From the NCBI GenBank assembly GCA_016200915.1, contig JACQDV010000055.1, positions 1 to 64,000 of the forward strand: 64,000 nt of DNA. The letters are read 5' to 3'. The position numbers were made by a program, and so were the translations under genes. The stretch is from Sphingobacteriales bacterium (GTDB lineage Bacteria > Bacteroidota > Bacteroidia > Chitinophagales > Chitinophagaceae). Below, in pieces: positions 55,630 through 64,000 of the stretch. The notes under the pieces were generated by a model. The model did no database searches. It saw only the letters and a program-made list of their open reading frames with translations, and had not been told where the DNA came from. How positions within the stretch are numbered: position 1 is the first letter of the stretch; the number at the start of each line of letters is the position of its first letter.

Positions 55630-57351
55630 TTAAATGTTACCTTTTTTTAATTCTTCCACTGCATGATTCGCTGCTCTTGCAGTAAAAGCCATATAAGTTA
55701 ATGATGGGTTTACACAGGAAGAGGAAGTCATGAAAGCACCATCGGTTACAAACACATTCATTGCATCCCATACCTGGTTCCATTTGTTGAGCACAGATGT
55801 TTTAGCATCATTCCCCATACGGGCTGTTCCCATTTCATGAATACCATGACCCAATGCATGACCAGTATCATAAGTAGTTACATTCTTTGCTCCTGCTGCT
55901 TCAAACATTGCTGTTAGTTCACTCTTTATATCCTCCCGCATTTTCATTTCGTTATCACGAATGATTGCATCCATTGCCAGCACCGGTAATCCCCATTTAT
56001 CTTTTACATTCTTATCTAATGAAATTTTATTTTCATGATAAGGAAGTACTTCACCAAAACCAGTGGCACCAATTCTCCAGGCACCGGGCTCAGTTAATGC
56101 ATCTTTAAATCCACCACCTATATTCATCTCGGCTACTTCACGGCTCCAACCCTGTCTGCTGGCAGCACCCTGGTAACCAAAGCCACGCAAATAATTTCTT
56201 TTATCCCCAAAGAGATTGGCAAAACGTGGAATATAAAAACCAGTTGGTCTTCTTCCGTAATAATATTGATCTTCAAAACCTTCAATATCACCACTGGCGC
56301 CTAAGTTATAGTGATGATCCATAATGTTATGGCCTAACTCACCGCTGCTGCTTCCCATTCCTTCGGGCCATATATCTGTTGCTGAATTAAACATCACCCA
56401 TGCGGAGTTTAGTGCAGATGCATTTAAGAAAACAATCTTCGATTTGTATTCGTATGTTTTATTATTTTCTGCATCCAGTACTTCTACCCCAGTTGCTTTC
56501 TTTGAATTTTTATCGTATAAAATTTTGGTAACAATAGACCATGGTCTTACTGTAAGATTGCCGGTTGTTTTTGCTGCCGGCATCGTAGATGATTGTGTAC
56601 TGAAATATCCACCAAAGGGACAACCTTCCCAGCAACGATCCCTGTACTGGCATTGTGTTCTTCCGGGAATAGGTTCAGTAAGATTGGCTACTCTTCCAAT
56701 AAAAAGATGACGGGTGTTATTATAATGCTTCTTAATTCTTTCTGCCACATCTTTCTCCACACAATTCATTTCGTATGGTTTCAAAAATTGTCCGTCAGGC
56801 AATTGTTCCAATCCCTGCTTTGAGCCAGCGATGCCGGCAAATTTTTCTACATGATCATACCAGGGAGCAATTTCATTATAACGAACTGGCCAGTCAATGG
56901 CAACCCCCTCTTTAGCGTTGGCTTCAAAATCCAGATCACTCCAGCGATAGCTTTGACGGCCCCACATAATAGATCTTCCGCCCACCTGGTAACTGCGCCA
57001 CCACGTAAAGGGTTTTACTTCTACATAGGGACAATCTTTTTCATTGGTCCAGTATTTCATTATCCGTTCATACGCAGCCCAGCCACGATGAACAACCGGG
57101 TAATCTTTATGCTGTGCTGCAGTGGTACGACCCCGATGTTCAATTTCCCAGGGATCTTTATTAGCCGTGTCATAATCTTTGATATGCTCAAGAGGACGAC
57201 CTCTTTCAAGCATCAGCACTTTTAATCCTTTTTCGCATAATTCTTTTGCTGCCCAGCCACCGCTGATACCTGAACCAACTACTATAGCATCATAAGTATT
57301 TTGTTCTTCGGCTTTGTTATTGATATGAACGTTTGATGAATCGCCTGGCAT
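55630..57351 (-). CDS. GMC-family FAD-dependent dehydrogenase, large subunit (copy 1)
   Basis: 573 residues. FAD-binding GSGISGGWAAKELCEKGLKVLMLERGR (about 22-48) and GGRSIMWGRQSYRWSD open it. QCQYRDRCWEGCPFGGYFSTQS has the spacing C-x5-C-x3-C used for a 3Fe-4S cluster in glucose dehydrogenase alpha subunits. The end has HEMGTARMG and SSCVNPSLTYMAFTARAA. No signal peptide is present, fitting export as a passenger of the small subunit encoded directly downstream. It probably oxidises a glycoside or polyol in the periplasm; the exact substrate is unknown. Confidence 0.88.
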   Translation of the reverse strand: MPGDSSNVHINNKAEEQNTYDAIVVGSGISGGWAAKELCEKGLKVLMLERGRPLEHIKDYDTANKDPWEIEHRGRTTAAQHKDYPVVHRGWAAYERIMKYWTNEKDCPYVEVKPFTWWRSYQVGGRSIMWGRQSYRWSDLDFEANAKEGVAIDWPVRYNEIAPWYDHVEKFAGIAGSKQGLEQLPDGQFLKPYEMNCVEKDVAERIKKHYNNTRHLFIGRVANLTEPIPGRTQCQYRDRCWEGCPFGGYFSTQSSTMPAAKTTGNLTVRPWSIVTKILYDKNSKKATGVEVLDAENNKTYEYKSKIVFLNASALNSAWVMFNSATDIWPEGMGSSSGELGHNIMDHHYNLGASGDIEGFEDQYYYGRRPTGFYIPRFANLFGDKRNYLRGFGYQGAASRQGWSREVAEMNIGGGFKDALTEPGAWRIGATGFGEVLPYHENKISLDKNVKDKWGLPVLAMDAIIRDNEMKMREDIKSELTAMFEAAGAKNVTTYDTGHALGHGIHEMGTARMGNDAKTSVLNKWNQVWDAMNVFVTDGAFMTSSSCVNPSLTYMAFTARAANHAVEELKKGNI

Positions 57352-57363
57352 AAGTTTATGGTA

Positions 57364-59040
57364 TTATAAGTTTTGTTTTTTTAATTCACTTACGGCATAA
57401 TCAGCAGCTCTTGCAGTAAACGCCATATAAGTTAATGATGGGTTTTGGCAAGCGGCAGATGTCATGAATGATCCATCTGTAACAAATACATTTTGTGCAT
57501 CCCATACCTGGTTCCATTTGTTGAGTACAGATGTTTTAGAATCATGACCCATACGGGCTGTTCCCATTTCGTGAATACCACGACCGGGAGTACCATCTCC
57601 TTCACCTGCCATTACATTTTTTAAACCGGCAGCTTCTAATATTTCTTTTGCATCATTCATCATGTCTTTGCGCATCTTCTTTTCATTTTCTTTCAACTCA
57701 CAATCGATGGCTAATACATTCAATCCCCATTTATCTTTTTTGGTTTTATCTAATGTTGCTTTGTTTTCATGATAAGGAAGTATTTCACCAAAACCTCCCA
57801 TACCAAATACCCATTGACCTGGTTCAGTTAATGCATCTTTAAATCCACCACCAATCGCTAACTCAGGTATCTCACGGCTCCATCCATCTCTTGAACCACC
57901 GCCCTGGTAACCAAAACCACGCAGGTAATCTCTTTTATCACCAAAGAAATTACGATAACGTGGAATATAAACACCATTGGCTCTTCTTCCGAAGACATAT
58001 TTATCTTCAAAACCTTCCACTGTTCCCTGTGCACCTACACCTAAATGATGATCCATTAAGTTATGACCTAACTCACCGCTGCTGCTGCCTAAACCATCCG
58101 GCCATATATCAGTAGCAGAATTCATTAATATCCACGCACTGTTAAGGGTAGAAGCATTTAAGAAAATGATCTTTGCTTTATATTCATAAGTCTTCATTGT
58201 TTCTGCATCCAGTACTTCCACACCAGTTGCTTTCTTTGAATCTTTATCGTATAAAATTTTTGTAACGATTGACCAGGGTCTTAATGTAAGATTACCTGTT
58301 TTCATAGCAGCAGGTAAAGTAGCAGATTGTGTGCTGAAGTAACCACCATACGGACAACCATACCAGCATTTATCACGGAACTGGCACTGACGGTTATTTA
58401 GTGGAACCGTAGCATGTGCACAACGACCAATAATTATTTTGCGGCTATTCTTATAATGTTCTTTTACTCTTGCTGCTACTTCTTTTTCCACGCAATTCAT
58501 TTCCATTGCTGGTAAGAAATGACTATCGGGCAGTTCTGGCAATCCTTCAACCGAACCACTAACACCGGCAAATTTTTCTACATAAGTGTACCAGTCTTCC
58601 ACATCTTTATAACGAACCGGCCAGTCAACAGCAATACCATCTCTTGCATTCTCCTCAAAATACAGATCACTCCAGCGATAACTCTGGCGACCCCACATCA
58701 ATGAACGTCCGCCAACATGGTATCCTCTGAACCAGTCAAATCTTTTTACTTCAGTATAAGGTGAATCTTTATCGCTTGCCCACCAGTCGAGATTGCGTTC
58801 GTTTAATGGATAATCTCTTTTTAATACAGGATAATCTTTGATCATTTGCTGGGTTCTGTCGCCACGATGAGGGTGATCCCAAGCTTCTTTATTTGCTTCT
58901 GTGTAATCTTTAATGTGTTCAATGTTCTTTCCTCTTTCCAGCATAATTGTTTTGAGACCTTTCTCACATAATTCTTTAGCTGCCCATCCGCCACTGATAC
59001 CGGAACCAATTACAATCGCATCATAAATATTCTCTGCCAT
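57364..59040 (-). CDS. GMC-family FAD-dependent dehydrogenase, large subunit (copy 2)
   Basis: 558 residues, clearly paralogous to the copies on either side over the whole length (GSGISGGWAAKELCEKGLKTIM, GGRSLMWGRQSYRWSD, QCQFRDKCWYGCPYGGYFSTQS, GTARMGHDSKTSVLNKWNQVWDA). It has no signal peptide and no small-subunit gene directly after it; copy 1 follows 12 bases later, so the two large subunits may share one small subunit. C-x5-C-x3-C is conserved. The Cys in the end motif AACQNPS replaces SSCVNPS. Confidence 0.88.
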   Translation of the reverse strand: MAENIYDAIVIGSGISGGWAAKELCEKGLKTIMLERGKNIEHIKDYTEANKEAWDHPHRGDRTQQMIKDYPVLKRDYPLNERNLDWWASDKDSPYTEVKRFDWFRGYHVGGRSLMWGRQSYRWSDLYFEENARDGIAVDWPVRYKDVEDWYTYVEKFAGVSGSVEGLPELPDSHFLPAMEMNCVEKEVAARVKEHYKNSRKIIIGRCAHATVPLNNRQCQFRDKCWYGCPYGGYFSTQSATLPAAMKTGNLTLRPWSIVTKILYDKDSKKATGVEVLDAETMKTYEYKAKIIFLNASTLNSAWILMNSATDIWPDGLGSSSGELGHNLMDHHLGVGAQGTVEGFEDKYVFGRRANGVYIPRYRNFFGDKRDYLRGFGYQGGGSRDGWSREIPELAIGGGFKDALTEPGQWVFGMGGFGEILPYHENKATLDKTKKDKWGLNVLAIDCELKENEKKMRKDMMNDAKEILEAAGLKNVMAGEGDGTPGRGIHEMGTARMGHDSKTSVLNKWNQVWDAQNVFVTDGSFMTSAACQNPSLTYMAFTARAADYAVSELKKQNL

Positions 59041-59379
59041 AACAATGTTGATTTATCCTTTTTGAAAATTGATTTTTTTGTGAATTGAATTTAAATACTA
59101 TTTAAAAACTCTTTTTATGAATTGATTTTTAATTTACCCAACTTTAAATCCCGGTTGAGCTATGGTTGCGCTTGTCCCCAACTTGTTGGCGGGTCGCACA
59201 CTTCGGTGTTCTGTAATTCTATTCAGCATTTTACCCACCCCTTACCCCTCCCGGGAGGGGATACTTTTCTCTCAATCTTCATCGTCCATCTTCATGCAGC
59301 TATTGCGAAATTGCGTTATTACGCCATTGAGCCATTATGCAATTCCATTAGCACATTTTCTCATTTGCTAACTTGCTAA
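59041..59379. other. Intergenic region with an octamer array
   Basis: 340 bases split the sugar-oxidation locus, between the copy-2 gene and the second small-subunit gene. No gene is seen. It includes a GC-rich stretch (about 59158-59205), a short run of C/G (59226-59265) and the period-8 array at 59302-59381. Transcription may restart here. Confidence 0.5.
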
Positions 59380-59381
59380 TT
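59302..59381. repeat. Period-8 tandem array
   Basis: Ten units with an 8-nt step: ATTGCGAA, ATTGCGTT, ATTACGCC, ATTGAGCC, ATTATGCA, ATTCCATT, AGCACATT, TTCTCATT, TGCTAACT, TGCTAATT. It ends at the stop codon of the small-subunit gene. The step differs from the heptamer family but the style is the same. Confidence 0.7.
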
Positions 59382-60015
59382 AAATAGAATCAGCCCAGGC
59401 CTTATCTCCTTTTTTATACGGCAATGCCCCATCATATTTACCAGGCACCTGTATGTGGCGCAAAGTTTCTGTAGCTCCTGTTTTGGAAGTAAAGAAACCT
59501 AACAGCGTTAATTGCTTCATTAATGTGAAATAATGTGATGCTACCGGGTTCTTAAAATCCATTATAGGTAATATATTTCCTTTTGCTCTTTCTGCTTTTA
59601 CAAAATCATCGTATGCTTTTTTTCTTTGATCTTGCACCGTTTTTGCTTCTTTATCTAATGAAACCAGTAATTCTTTCCGGTGTTCGGGAGTAGCTTTTAA
59701 ATAATCATGTCCGTGCATTTTGTTGCAGGCTTCATCGAGTTTGTTTACACCTTCGAGGAAAGCTTTTTGATCATCTGCATCATAGCAATCGGTAACATAT
59801 ACTTTCATAAACTCACCCACTTGAGCAGCTTTTGCACCGGGAGTTGATGTAGCCGGAATAATTGTTTCTGCTACTTCATCTAAAAAAGCAATCGTTTCAG
59901 GTGTAAAGGTTACTGGTCCTCCAGTTGATTTACATCCTGAAAAAAACAATTCACCACCAACCAGTGCACCACCGGTAGCTAAAGCAATCATCTTTAAAAG
60001 TTCTCTGCGTTCCAT
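59380..60015 (-). CDS. Gluconate 2-dehydrogenase subunit 3-like small subunit (copy 2)
   Basis: 211 residues, paralogous to the copy at 55047: MERRELLKMIALATGGALVGGELFFSGCKS gives the Tat-like and lipobox signal, then IAFLDEVAETIIPATSTPGAKAAQ, VYVTDCYDADDQ and GKYDGALPY. It has an insertion of about 20 residues (KAERAKGNILPIMDF) relative to the other copy. It follows the copy-3 GMC gene with a gap that contains a heptamer array. Confidence 0.88.
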   Translation of the reverse strand: MERRELLKMIALATGGALVGGELFFSGCKSTGGPVTFTPETIAFLDEVAETIIPATSTPGAKAAQVGEFMKVYVTDCYDADDQKAFLEGVNKLDEACNKMHGHDYLKATPEHRKELLVSLDKEAKTVQDQRKKAYDDFVKAERAKGNILPIMDFKNPVASHYFTLMKQLTLLGFFTSKTGATETLRHIQVPGKYDGALPYKKGDKAWADSI

Positions 60016-60022
60016 ATAATTC

Positions 60023-60057
60023 GTTTATAGTTTGTAGTTTATGGTTTGTGGTTATTT
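60023..60057. repeat. Period-7 array upstream of small subunit 2
   Basis: Units GTTTATA, GTTTGTA, GTTTATG, GTTTGTG, GTTATTT, 8 bases before the ATG (minus strand). The same unit type interrupts dacB at 9813-9847. Confidence 0.8.
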
Positions 60058-60124
60058 AATAAATACCGTTGACCACTACTCTTTGTAAACTTTAACTCTA
60101 AGCCCTTTTAGGGGGTTTGGGGGT

Positions 60125-61822
60125 TTACAAATTTCCTTTCTTTAATTCACTCACTGCATGATCTGCTGCCCTTGCCGTAAAGGCCATATAAGTAAGTGAA
60201 GGATTAACACAGCTTGAACTGGTCATAAATGAACCATCGGTTACAAATACGTTTTGAGCATCCCACACCTGGTTAAATCCATTGAGCACTGATGTTTTTG
60301 AATCACGACCCATACGGGCTGTACCCATTTCATGAATACCCATACCATGCGCATAGCCAGTATCATAGGTATGGACATTTTTTACACCAGCTGCTTCTAA
60401 CATTTCTGCTGCATCATTAGCCATATCCTTACGCATCTTAATTTCATTTTCTTTTAGCTCTACATCAAAAGCAAGAACAGGCAGGCCCCATTTATCTTTT
60501 TTGTTTTTATCTAAACTGATCTTATTACTATGATCGGGCAATATCTCACCAAAACCACCAAGACCCATGCTCCATGAACCCGCTTCACTCAACGCATCTT
60601 TTAATTCAGCACCCAGTGTAAATTCTGGTACCTGAAGTCCACGACCACGATTTGCCCCGCCCTGGTAACCAAAACCACGCAGGTAATCTCTTTTGTCATC
60701 ATAAATATTTCTAAAACGTGGAATGTACACACCGGTTGGTCTTCTGCCCCAAATGTATTTATCCTGGTAACCTTCCACAGTTCCACCTGCCCCTACTTTT
60801 AAATGATGATCCATTACATTATGGCCAAGCTCACCACTGCTGCTGCCTAAACCATCGGGCCATATATTAGTAGCACTGTTCATTAATATCCAGGTGCTGT
60901 TGAAAGTAGAGGCACAGAGGAAAACGATCTTAGCGTTGTAAGTATATGTTTTATTGGTATTCGTATCCAACGCTTCTACACCTGTTGCTTTCTTTTTGTC
61001 TTTATCATATAAAACCTGTGTAGCAATTTTATCTGCTTCAATGGTGAGGTTGCCTGTTTTCATGGCTACGGGTAGTGTAGCAGCGTTACTGCTGAAGTAA
61101 GCACCAAAGGGACATCCATACCAGCAACGGTTGCGGTATTGACAGTTCACACGGTTTTGTTCAGGCTTTGGTTGAGTGATGTTAGCACTGCGACCAATAA
61201 ACATGTGACGTTTTCCCTGGTAATGATCTTTAATTTTTGCAGCTACATCTTTCTCCACCACATTCATTTCCATACCGGGAAGAAATTCGCCATCGGGCAA
61301 TACATCCAATCCTTCTTTTGTTCCCTGAATACCGGCAAATCTTTCTGCATAACTATACCAGGGAGCAATATCATCATAACGAACAGGCCAGTCAACTCCA
61401 ATTCCTTCTTTAGCATTGGCTTCAAAATCCCATTTGTTGAAACGGTAAGACTGACGTCCCCATAACAATGAACGGCCACCTAAAATATATCCACGAAACC
61501 AATCATAACGTTTGATCTCTGTATATGGATTGTCTTTATCACTTGCCCATGGGCTCCAGTTATCATCCGCCATTGATTCTCTCAACGGATAATCTCTTTT
61601 TAAATGCGGATAATCATTGATCTCTTGTTGAGTGCGTCCGTTGCGGTGAGGGAAATCCCAAACTTCTTTGGTGGTGTTTTTATAATCTTTGATGTGTTCA
61701 ATGTTTTTACCACGTTCCAGCAGCAAAACTTTCAGACCTTTCTCCGTTAATTCCTTAGCAGCCCATCCGCCACTAATACCGGAACCAACTACAATTGCAT
61801 CGAATGTGTTGTTATCGGGCAT
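60125..61822 (-). CDS. GMC-family FAD-dependent dehydrogenase, large subunit (copy 3)
   Basis: 565 residues. GSGISGGWAAKELTEKGLKVLLLERGK binds FAD, GGRSLLWGRQSYRFNKWDFEANAKEGIGVDWP follows, and NCQYRNRCWYGCPFGAYFSS keeps the C-x5-C-x3-C cluster motif. HEMGTARMGRDSKTSVL and SSCVNPSLTYMAFTARAADHA end it. It is the first GMC gene after the isomerase gene and pairs with small subunit 2 downstream. No export signal of its own. Sequence divergence from copies 1 and 2 suggests a different sugar. Confidence 0.88.
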   Translation of the reverse strand: MPDNNTFDAIVVGSGISGGWAAKELTEKGLKVLLLERGKNIEHIKDYKNTTKEVWDFPHRNGRTQQEINDYPHLKRDYPLRESMADDNWSPWASDKDNPYTEIKRYDWFRGYILGGRSLLWGRQSYRFNKWDFEANAKEGIGVDWPVRYDDIAPWYSYAERFAGIQGTKEGLDVLPDGEFLPGMEMNVVEKDVAAKIKDHYQGKRHMFIGRSANITQPKPEQNRVNCQYRNRCWYGCPFGAYFSSNAATLPVAMKTGNLTIEADKIATQVLYDKDKKKATGVEALDTNTNKTYTYNAKIVFLCASTFNSTWILMNSATNIWPDGLGSSSGELGHNVMDHHLKVGAGGTVEGYQDKYIWGRRPTGVYIPRFRNIYDDKRDYLRGFGYQGGANRGRGLQVPEFTLGAELKDALSEAGSWSMGLGGFGEILPDHSNKISLDKNKKDKWGLPVLAFDVELKENEIKMRKDMANDAAEMLEAAGVKNVHTYDTGYAHGMGIHEMGTARMGRDSKTSVLNGFNQVWDAQNVFVTDGSFMTSSSCVNPSLTYMAFTARAADHAVSELKKGNL

Positions 61823-61905: not shown

Positions 61906-62802
61906 TCACACATCACATCTCCTGATCGCATCTTTTAATGCAGCGATCTTTTCTTTATTATCCTTTCCTGTTGACATAAATTCCTGTGCTACATATCCTT
62001 TGTGCCCCACATCAACAATAGCCTGCATAATGGCAGGATAATACAATTCCTGTGTCTCGTTAATCTCATGTCTTCCCGGTACACCGGCTGTGTGATAATG
62101 AGCAAAGTACTGGTGATTATCCCGTATGGTGCGAATCACATCTCCTTCGTTTATCTGCATATGATAGATATCGTACAGGAGTTTGAAATTTTCAGAGCCA
62201 AGTCGTTTACACAGTTCAACTCCCCAGGCACTTTTGTCGCACATATAATCCGGGTGATTTATTTTGCTGTTGAATAACTCCATTTGAACGATAACACCAT
62301 TCTTCTCGGCTAAAGGAAGAATTTTCTGCAAACCTTCCACGCAATTCTTTAAACCGGTCTCATCATCCATACCATTGCGGTTACCACTAAAGCAGATGAG
62401 ATTTTTATAACCAGCCTTATTCATTAATGGAATAACATCTAAGTATTCTTTTACCAACCCTTCGTGGTATTCTTTATGATTAAATCCTTTGGTAAGACTT
62501 ACTTCACCGGCGATATAACACATGGAAGCATAGAGACCATGTTTTTGTAATGTTTCCCACTCCTGTGGTTTTACTAAATCAATAGCGCCAAAACCAATTT
62601 CTTTTACTACCAAACATAATTCTTCCAGCGAAAGAAAATTATAGGTCCAGTAACAAACGGAGTGATTGATATTACCTTTCAATTTGAGTTTTTTTTCGAA
62701 CAGCACTTCGTCGAGTTCTTTGTCTTTAAAAGAAGATAATCCTCCCAAAGCCAGCGAACCTAATGCAACCTGTTTTATTAAATTACGGCGTGATGTACTC
62801 AT
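61906..62802 (-). CDS. Tat-type hydroxypyruvate isomerase-like TIM barrel protein
   Basis: 298 residues. The N-terminus MSTSRRNLIKQVALGSLALGGLSSF is a Tat-like signal. The barrel carries FGAIDLVKPQEWETL, NLICFSGNRNGMDDETG, VIVQMELFNSKINHPDYM, LLYDIYHMQINEGD, FAHYHTAGVPGRHEINETQELYYPAIMQ and GYVAQEFMSTG, the hydroxypyruvate isomerase group layout with metal-binding Glu/Asp/His. It lies between the MFS gene and GMC copy 3 and likely acts on an oxidation product of the locus. Confidence 0.85.
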   Translation of the reverse strand: MSTSRRNLIKQVALGSLALGGLSSFKDKELDEVLFEKKLKLKGNINHSVCYWTYNFLSLEELCLVVKEIGFGAIDLVKPQEWETLQKHGLYASMCYIAGEVSLTKGFNHKEYHEGLVKEYLDVIPLMNKAGYKNLICFSGNRNGMDDETGLKNCVEGLQKILPLAEKNGVIVQMELFNSKINHPDYMCDKSAWGVELCKRLGSENFKLLYDIYHMQINEGDVIRTIRDNHQYFAHYHTAGVPGRHEINETQELYYPAIMQAIVDVGHKGYVAQEFMSTGKDNKEKIAALKDAIRRCDV

Positions 62803-62849: not shown

Positions 62850-64000
62850 TTAAGCTTCCTTTGTTTTCTTTGGATCTTTAAAGAAAACAAGGAACAATAA
62901 AGTTACAACCACTGCAATACCAGCCGGCACCATCCATATATTTTTCCAAAAATGTGTTGATGTTGTTGACTTTACTACAAGTTCACCACTCTTTACATTT
63001 TTTGAGTCTTTATCTGTTTCAATACCTACTTTTTCATATGCATCAGCACTTACAACCTCTGTATATATCGCAGGGAATTCCTTTAATTTTACATCTGTGC
63101 TTGCTTCGACACTATTCCTTAGGTAGCTGATCTTTACTGCCTCGCCAGCTTTAGCAGTATTAATTTTTGCTTCGAAATCTTTATTATCTGTAAAGGTTGC
63201 ATTGTTGACTTTAATAACAATGTCGCCCTTTTTAATCCCCGCATATTTTGCACCCTGATCTGCTAATTCATATTTATTTGAAATGATTCCTGCAAACCAA
63301 AATCCTATCAACATTCCTGTTCCATAAGTAGCCAGCGTAATCATACCCTGAGCAGAAGACCGAATCTTTTCACCAGCTCTTTCATCAGTATATATTTGTC
63401 CGGTTACAAAAAAGAAATCGTAACAAATACCATGCAATACAATACCAATATATAGCAACCATACTCCACTGCCTGTATTGCCAAAACCAAACATCAGGTA
63501 TCGAACTGCCCAGGCGATCATGCCTAACAACAGCATTTTCTTCACACCTAATTTTCGGAAAAATAATGGCATAAGGATCATAAATATCATCTCACTCATT
63601 TGTCCCATACTCATCTTACCTGCAGCACCTGACAATCTCAGTTCATTTAAAAATTTGTTTGTTTCCTGGTAATAAAATGCAAGCGGTATGCAGATCAATA
63701 ATGATGATAAAAAGAACATTAAAAAACTTTTGTCTTTTAAAAGGCTTAATGCATCAAGTCCTAAAATTTCACTTACGGTAACTTTTGTTCCGGCCTTCGG
63801 TGGGGGAGTATTGGGTAAAGTAAAACTGAAAACACCCAGTATCGCCGATATGATCGCTGTTAAGCGAAATGTATTTACCAGGGACCCTTTTTGTTCCCAT
63901 GCTAACCAGCCAATAATCAACCCGGCTACAATCCATCCAATAGTTCCCCACACACGAATACCTGAAAATTCTTTTTCAGGATTAGTTAATTGTTTAAAAG
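62850..64000 (-). CDS. MFS transporter (NupG/nucleoside-H+ symporter-like) with inserted PDZ domain, truncated by window end
   Basis: The reading frame stays open to the window edge (TNPEKEFSGIRVWGTIGWIV continues upstream), so the start is outside; the GTG at 63953 is internal. The membrane part resembles nucleoside/sugar MFS permeases (RVWGTIGWIVAG, LGVKKMLLLGMIAWAVRYLMF). Between the last two TM helices a soluble stretch of about 100 residues appears, with AKYAGIKKGDIVIKVNNATFTDNKDFEAKINTAKAGEAVKISYLRN, the form of a PDZ domain. A final TM helix (FWKNIWMVPAGIAVVVTLLFL) follows. It heads the sugar-oxidation locus and may import its substrate or product. Confidence 0.85.
   Translation of the reverse strand, partial: FKQLTNPEKEFSGIRVWGTIGWIVAGLIIGWLAWEQKGSLVNTFRLTAIISAILGVFSFTLPNTPPPKAGTKVTVSEILGLDALSLLKDKSFLMFFLSSLLICIPLAFYYQETNKFLNELRLSGAAGKMSMGQMSEMIFMILMPLFFRKLGVKKMLLLGMIAWAVRYLMFGFGNTGSGVWLLYIGIVLHGICYDFFFVTGQIYTDERAGEKIRSSAQGMITLATYGTGMLIGFWFAGIISNKYELADQGAKYAGIKKGDIVIKVNNATFTDNKDFEAKINTAKAGEAVKISYLRNSVEASTDVKLKEFPAIYTEVVSADAYEKVGIETDKDSKNVKSGELVVKSTTSTHFWKNIWMVPAGIAVVVTLLFLVFFKDPKKTKEA

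Follow-up and report, generated by a model that had tools for sequence, protein, structure and literature searches.

A Do-protease-like PDZ segment between the last two helices of a predicted NHS-family transporter

The transporter gene and its setting

The window analysed here is the whole stretch of 64,000 nucleotides at the start of contig JACQDV010000055.1 (assembly GCA_016200915.1), from a Sphingobacteriales bacterium of the family Chitinophagaceae. At its end lies a transporter gene in which a first-pass annotation had placed a PDZ domain, between the penultimate and last membrane helices. The annotated coordinates were correct; the gene however extends past the end of the window, to position 64355. 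The gene, its relevant parts and its downstream neighbours are as follows.

62850..64355 (contig G000:C89), minus strand: gene for an NHS-family MFS transporter of 501 amino acids with an ATG start; 62850..64000 is its 3' part, inside the window
63285..63341, minus strand: TM11, residues about 339-357 (hydropathy; a helix in the structural model; aligned in relatives)
62958..63260, minus strand: inserted segment, residues 366-466, about 100 amino acids (alignment of relatives; Do-type profile)
63084..63251, minus strand: part matching Pfam PDZ_2 (profile positions 25-80 of 80)
62883..62939, minus strand: TM12, residues about 473-491, with a lysine-rich tail after it (hydropathy; model pLDDT; aligned in relatives)
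61906..62802, minus strand: xylose-isomerase-like TIM-barrel protein, next gene downstream (PF01261, 1.8e-21)
60125..61822, minus strand: GMC oxidoreductase, next downstream of the isomerase-like gene (PF05199 and PF00732)
59380..60015, minus strand: gluconate 2-dehydrogenase subunit 3-like protein (PF13618, 4e-33)

The full 501-residue protein matches PF03825 (Nuc_H_symport) at 1.2e-109, with 367.4 bits against a cut-off of 25.9, and the best Foldseek matches for the model of its window part are YegT (8zoj) and NupG (7dla/7dl9). A GXXXD motif in TM10, given as the protonation motif of the NHS family in PMC11979927, reads GICYD in this protein; the motif is intact, and all 33 rows of our alignment share the G and the D. 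Hydropathy of the full protein shows 13 peaks, of which the weakest (188-206) was judged to be a loop and not a helix, plus a stretch of 115 residues that separates TM11 from TM12. By its sequence, the protein is predicted to be a 12-helix NHS-family proton symporter of the YegT/NupG type. It resembles YegT and NupG of E. coli in sequence (8zoj, 6.4e-92; 7dl9, 6.8e-57), in fold and in the TM10 GXXXD motif, but the chains of those two transporters (425 and 418 residues) have no domain in the TM11-TM12 loop. Against TIGR00889, a narrower subfamily of nucleoside permeases, the full protein scores 359 bits, below the cut-off of 446.1, and we therefore do not claim a nucleoside substrate. Also in the neighbourhood of the genes listed above are a Gfo/Idh/MocA protein and a second MFS transporter. 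The transporter probably imports a compound, sugar- or nucleoside-like as we infer, for the adjoining isomerase, GMC and Gfo/Idh genes.

A segment of Do-protease type in the TM11-TM12 loop

Residues 366-466 are cleanly inserted between TM11 and TM12. The corresponding columns hold 1-4 residues in all 29 family relatives aligned (those fetched from a search of 147 family genomes), the flanks align, and the reading frame stays open over both junctions. In the full protein, PF13180 (PDZ_2) matches residues 369-424 at 2e-10, with 41.2 bits against a cut-off of 27, and the window part of the gene gives 1.3e-10 by itself (41.2-41.8 bits across both runs). The location of PDZ-type sequence between the last two MFS helices, first read from the sequence alone, is thus borne out by a profile search of the full gene and by the relatives. 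On the window part, two further profiles remain under their cut-offs, PDZ (PF00595) with 18.7 bits against 23.2 and PDZ_6 with 16.5 against 27. The PDZ_2 match covers profile positions 25-80 of 80, with positions 1-24 missing in front, and the residues that precede it are the end of TM11; for these reasons a conventional whole PDZ domain was rejected.

What the segment resembles instead is the junction of the two PDZ repeats in Do-type proteases, which are periplasmic enzymes. We built a profile of the PDZ1-PDZ2 region from 16 proteins (the Do-type protease of the host genome, C15; six insert relatives from family genomes; nine hits of the phylum search described below), and its positions 36-133 match residues 366-457 of the transporter colinearly, with 70.5 bits. 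The aligned stretch opens with the first PDZ1 helix, crosses the linker and ends early in PDZ2, so that the insert begins without the usual opening strands. The annotated 'PDZ domain' is PDZ-type in its sequence but looks like a PDZ1-to-PDZ2 fragment of Do type. The NCBIfam Do model matches residues 367-480 with 38.7 bits, far under its whole-protein cut-off. Nine solved chains match the insert, all named serine proteases and mostly Do or DegQ (4ynn, 6.6e-5; 6z05, 1.1e-4); their matches end at residues 417-426, and none of them supports the tail of the insert. The seven best insert relatives fetched from the 147 family genomes are 33-38% identical to it, and six of these are frames of 506-519 residues with the GNSGG serine-protease motif, the seventh (L047) being a 247-residue frame without it. 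A viral contig collection contains Do-type relatives at three loci, at most 33% identical, which were left out of the structure-prediction input. The PDZ1 part of the insert is homologous to this region of the Do proteases. In Do, DegP and DegQ, however, the region aligned with residues 366-457 spans two separate PDZ domains behind the protease, whereas here it stands alone, inserted in a loop.

The host genome has nine PDZ_2 matches, one of them in the transporter gene; among the other eight frames, C15 was read as a Do-type protease. The host-genome matches listed are just 31% identical to the insert (C15) and 39% over 59 residues (C36), and a recent copy from the host genome was rejected on this basis. 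The same values speak against an assembly artefact or chimera, which would account for the presence of the segment in one assembly only and for a third-position GC of 25.7%, some 5 points under the 30.9% of the remaining gene. Overall GC, however, matches (36.0% in the insert, 36.7% in the rest), both junctions are in frame and lie in a loop between two conserved helices, and the genome is rated 100% complete with 0.15% contamination; we regard an artefact as very improbable. No target-site duplication was seen flanking the insert, the three families of direct repeats and one inverted pair that were found not bracketing it.

Distribution among relatives

Relatives of the transporter are widespread in the family, occurring in 136 of 147 genomes with the host included (E-value limit 0.001). 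Of the matches listed for these 147 genomes, only that of the host gene aligns past residue 374. Both further genomes of the same genus lack the insert, their relatives (73% and 64% identical) aligning to residues 365 and 364, and in 396 genomes of the order (up to three candidates per genome scored, matches kept to 1e-80) the matches listed, the host gene aside, end by residue 372. From a collection of genome contigs we fetched 80 Bacteroidota relatives, which measure 399-422 residues between the start of the match and the stop, the nearest being that of Flavisolibacter ginsengisoli (76% identical in the best segment).

A query of 163 positions comprising TM11, insert and TM12 was also searched, scoring up to nine candidates per genome. 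At a limit of 1e-8, matches came from 14 of the 395 phylum genomes, and at 1e-10 from 15 of the 394 family genomes, the host being counted in both. Outside the host gene the matches fall within query positions 29-149, in frames of 247-557 residues, and therefore none reaches TM11. Nine of the 13 non-host hits of the phylum search were fetched; all align with the PDZ1-PDZ2 region of Do and contain GNSGG. For the family search, eight of the 14 non-host hits lie in opened loci (seven with GNSGG, L047 without it); for the other six, query range and frame length were the criteria. In the viral contig collection no carrier of the insert was found, and one NHS relative there matches residues 1-374. 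Among the samples searched, the insert is known so far from a single genome, and its absence from relatives is supported across the family, genus, order and phylum samples and the 80 Bacteroidota relatives. The open-licence literature searched yielded no report of a PDZ inserted in an MFS or NHS transporter, nor of a permuted PDZ in an HtrA or RseP context.

Of 80 related loci, including some truncated by contig ends, 41 have an isomerase relative no more than 600 bp downstream of the transporter. These 41 loci are all insert-free, so the isomerase context is probably older than the insert.

This restriction to one genome, with absence from both congeners and from the relatives examined, counts in favour of a neutral insertion, that is, a domain fragment, folded or not, that is tolerated in a permissive periplasmic loop and has no binding role. 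Against it stand about 300 bases that are open and in frame, and a PDZ core (GIKKGDIVIKVN and following) that is recognisable although identity outside the transporter gene is at most 40% among the matches listed. A recognisable core at that identity indicates that the insert either diverged under constraint or came from an unsampled donor.

Possible fold and role of the insert

In MFS topology, the TM11-TM12 loop lies on the periplasmic side. The C-terminal tail of the transporter, with four K/R and two D/E among 10 residues, fits a cytoplasmic end, which in turn implies an outward-facing TM11-TM12 loop, so that both lines agree with a periplasmic position for the insert. The segment may be regarded as about one PDZ repeat in another register, with the cut placed in the loop that precedes the first helix. 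With such a cut, the usual opening strands of a PDZ domain would come last, which amounts to a circular permutation, and the ends of the folded unit would be adjacent, allowing it to be added without disturbing the packing of the helices.

Whether the tail could supply these strands and the carboxylate-binding loop was assessed by shuffling and rotation. In its natural place the tail adds to the score: with shuffling confined to the last 40 residues, 3 of 2000 sequences matched or exceeded the 73.5 bits of the real one, the mean being 65.8. The tail alone did not reach significance, since 117 of the 1753 shuffles reported scored at least as high as the real tail, and it is some six residues shorter than its counterpart in the Do profile. 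Moving the tail to the front raised the score against the PDZ1 profile from 61.5 to 68.4 (63.7 without the tail), a value equalled by 109 of 2000 shuffled tails, and against the PDZ2 profile from 13.3 to 19.9, equalled by 12 of 2000. With Pfam profiles, for which two of the six shuffled controls made were used, rotation changed PF00595 from 21.2 to 31.0 (controls 25.7 and 23.9), PDZ_2 from 44.7 to 51.1 bits (one of the two controls, 51.3) and PDZ_6 from 19.4 to 19.7 (controls 24.1 and 19.5). The shuffles give modest support to homology of the tail with the start of PDZ2 and the rotations are equivocal; a permuted PDZ fold is plausible rather than established.

Structure prediction, put forward with the first-pass annotation as a check, gave no confident fold for the insert. 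With input that contained no homologues of the insert, AlphaFold modelled the insert alone at low confidence (pLDDT 42), and the window part (382 residues, 33 sequences, likewise with no insert homologues) at a mean pLDDT of 73. In this longer model the pLDDT is 86-94 across most of TM11 and 96-98 across most of TM12; the core of the insert, at 39-54, is modelled as two strands, a helix and two more strands, and its tail is unstructured at about 30. The lack of a confidently predicted fold and the missing opening strands at the expected place both count in favour of neutral insertion.

We tentatively prefer a different explanation, in which an NHS symporter would have gained, in frame, a segment of about 100 residues homologous to Do (DegP/DegQ) protease. 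In the periplasmic TM11-TM12 loop this segment would fold as a circularly permuted PDZ with its ends side by side, and would give a still functional transporter a docking site in the periplasm, to which a partner protein would be brought through its C-terminal tail or through an exposed strand, by peptide binding as we infer. This Do-derived docking module leads among the readings considered, if only just, since neutral insertion is nearly as credible. A comparable arrangement occurs in the site-2 protease RseP, where a periplasmic loop joining two membrane helices also carries PDZ modules, but RseP is an intramembrane protease with two such modules. In Do and RseP the PDZ modules have roles in regulation and in sensing substrates, and the insert adjoins both TM11 and TM12; it might instead control the transporter without tethering an enzyme, for example by folding over the periplasmic entrance or by marking the protein for quality-control proteases. 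The sequence bears no evidence on such control, and no such MFS case was found in the open-licence literature searched; we consider such control unlikely.

The nearest parallel within the MFS is that of mammalian PepT1 and PepT2 (SLC15), where an outward loop in the second half of the transporter carries a folded extracellular domain, with docking of a partner proposed as it is here (PMC4597091). The PepT case differs in its TM9-TM10 loop, its two immunoglobulin-like lobes and trypsin as the partner; the authors call it highly unusual (PMC4597091). The PepT domain is reported there to bind trypsin and to be removable without appreciable loss of transport (PMC4597091), and this dispensability for transport also suits neutral insertion. 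Folded domains inside the MFS core being rare, an insert that folds and binds would be a bacterial parallel with a different domain in a different loop. Repeat units of tandem-PDZ proteases would then be re-usable in a shifted register as loop inserts, and one way for periplasmic oxidation to be coupled to uptake would be illustrated; a neutral insert would still mark the TM11-TM12 loop as a tolerant site.

As to partners, the insert had been suggested to tether the C-terminal tail of a dehydrogenase or isomerase of the locus. Among the best 14 of 42 isomerase relatives the tail ends in -CDV in ten, -CDI in three and otherwise in one, the host having -CDV, and among the best 14 of 43 GMC relatives all 14 have N as the penultimate residue and L, I or V as the last, the host having -NL. 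Tails thus being alike in insert-free relatives, those listed show no adaptation to the insert and indicate no partner. The subunit-3 tails of the best 14 of 31 relatives are AWA, AWAT, AWALS, AWAIS or AWALV, and that of the host is -AWADSI. The host tail is a possible ligand of the insert and is offered as a lead only, because this tail varies anyway. A stronger proposal, that a permuted, ligand-binding PDZ1/PDZ2 hybrid couples a periplasmic oxidoreductase of the locus (e.g. the subunit-3 protein, with -DSI) directly to uptake, strikes us as improbable.

Some further features of the locus may be recorded. The second MFS transporter lies directly upstream on the minus strand (L009 6377-7600, window equivalent 64376-65599), and a relative of it occurs in 10 of 80 related loci, some ended by contig ends. 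Three related GMC oxidoreductases are clustered with the subunit-3 protein at 55630-61822 on the minus strand. Outside the window, the opposite strand encodes a fourth with its own subunit 3 (L009 7891-10386). After AWA, the host subunit-3 tail is 1-3 residues longer than those of the best 14 of 31 relatives, and its last residue is hydrophobic.
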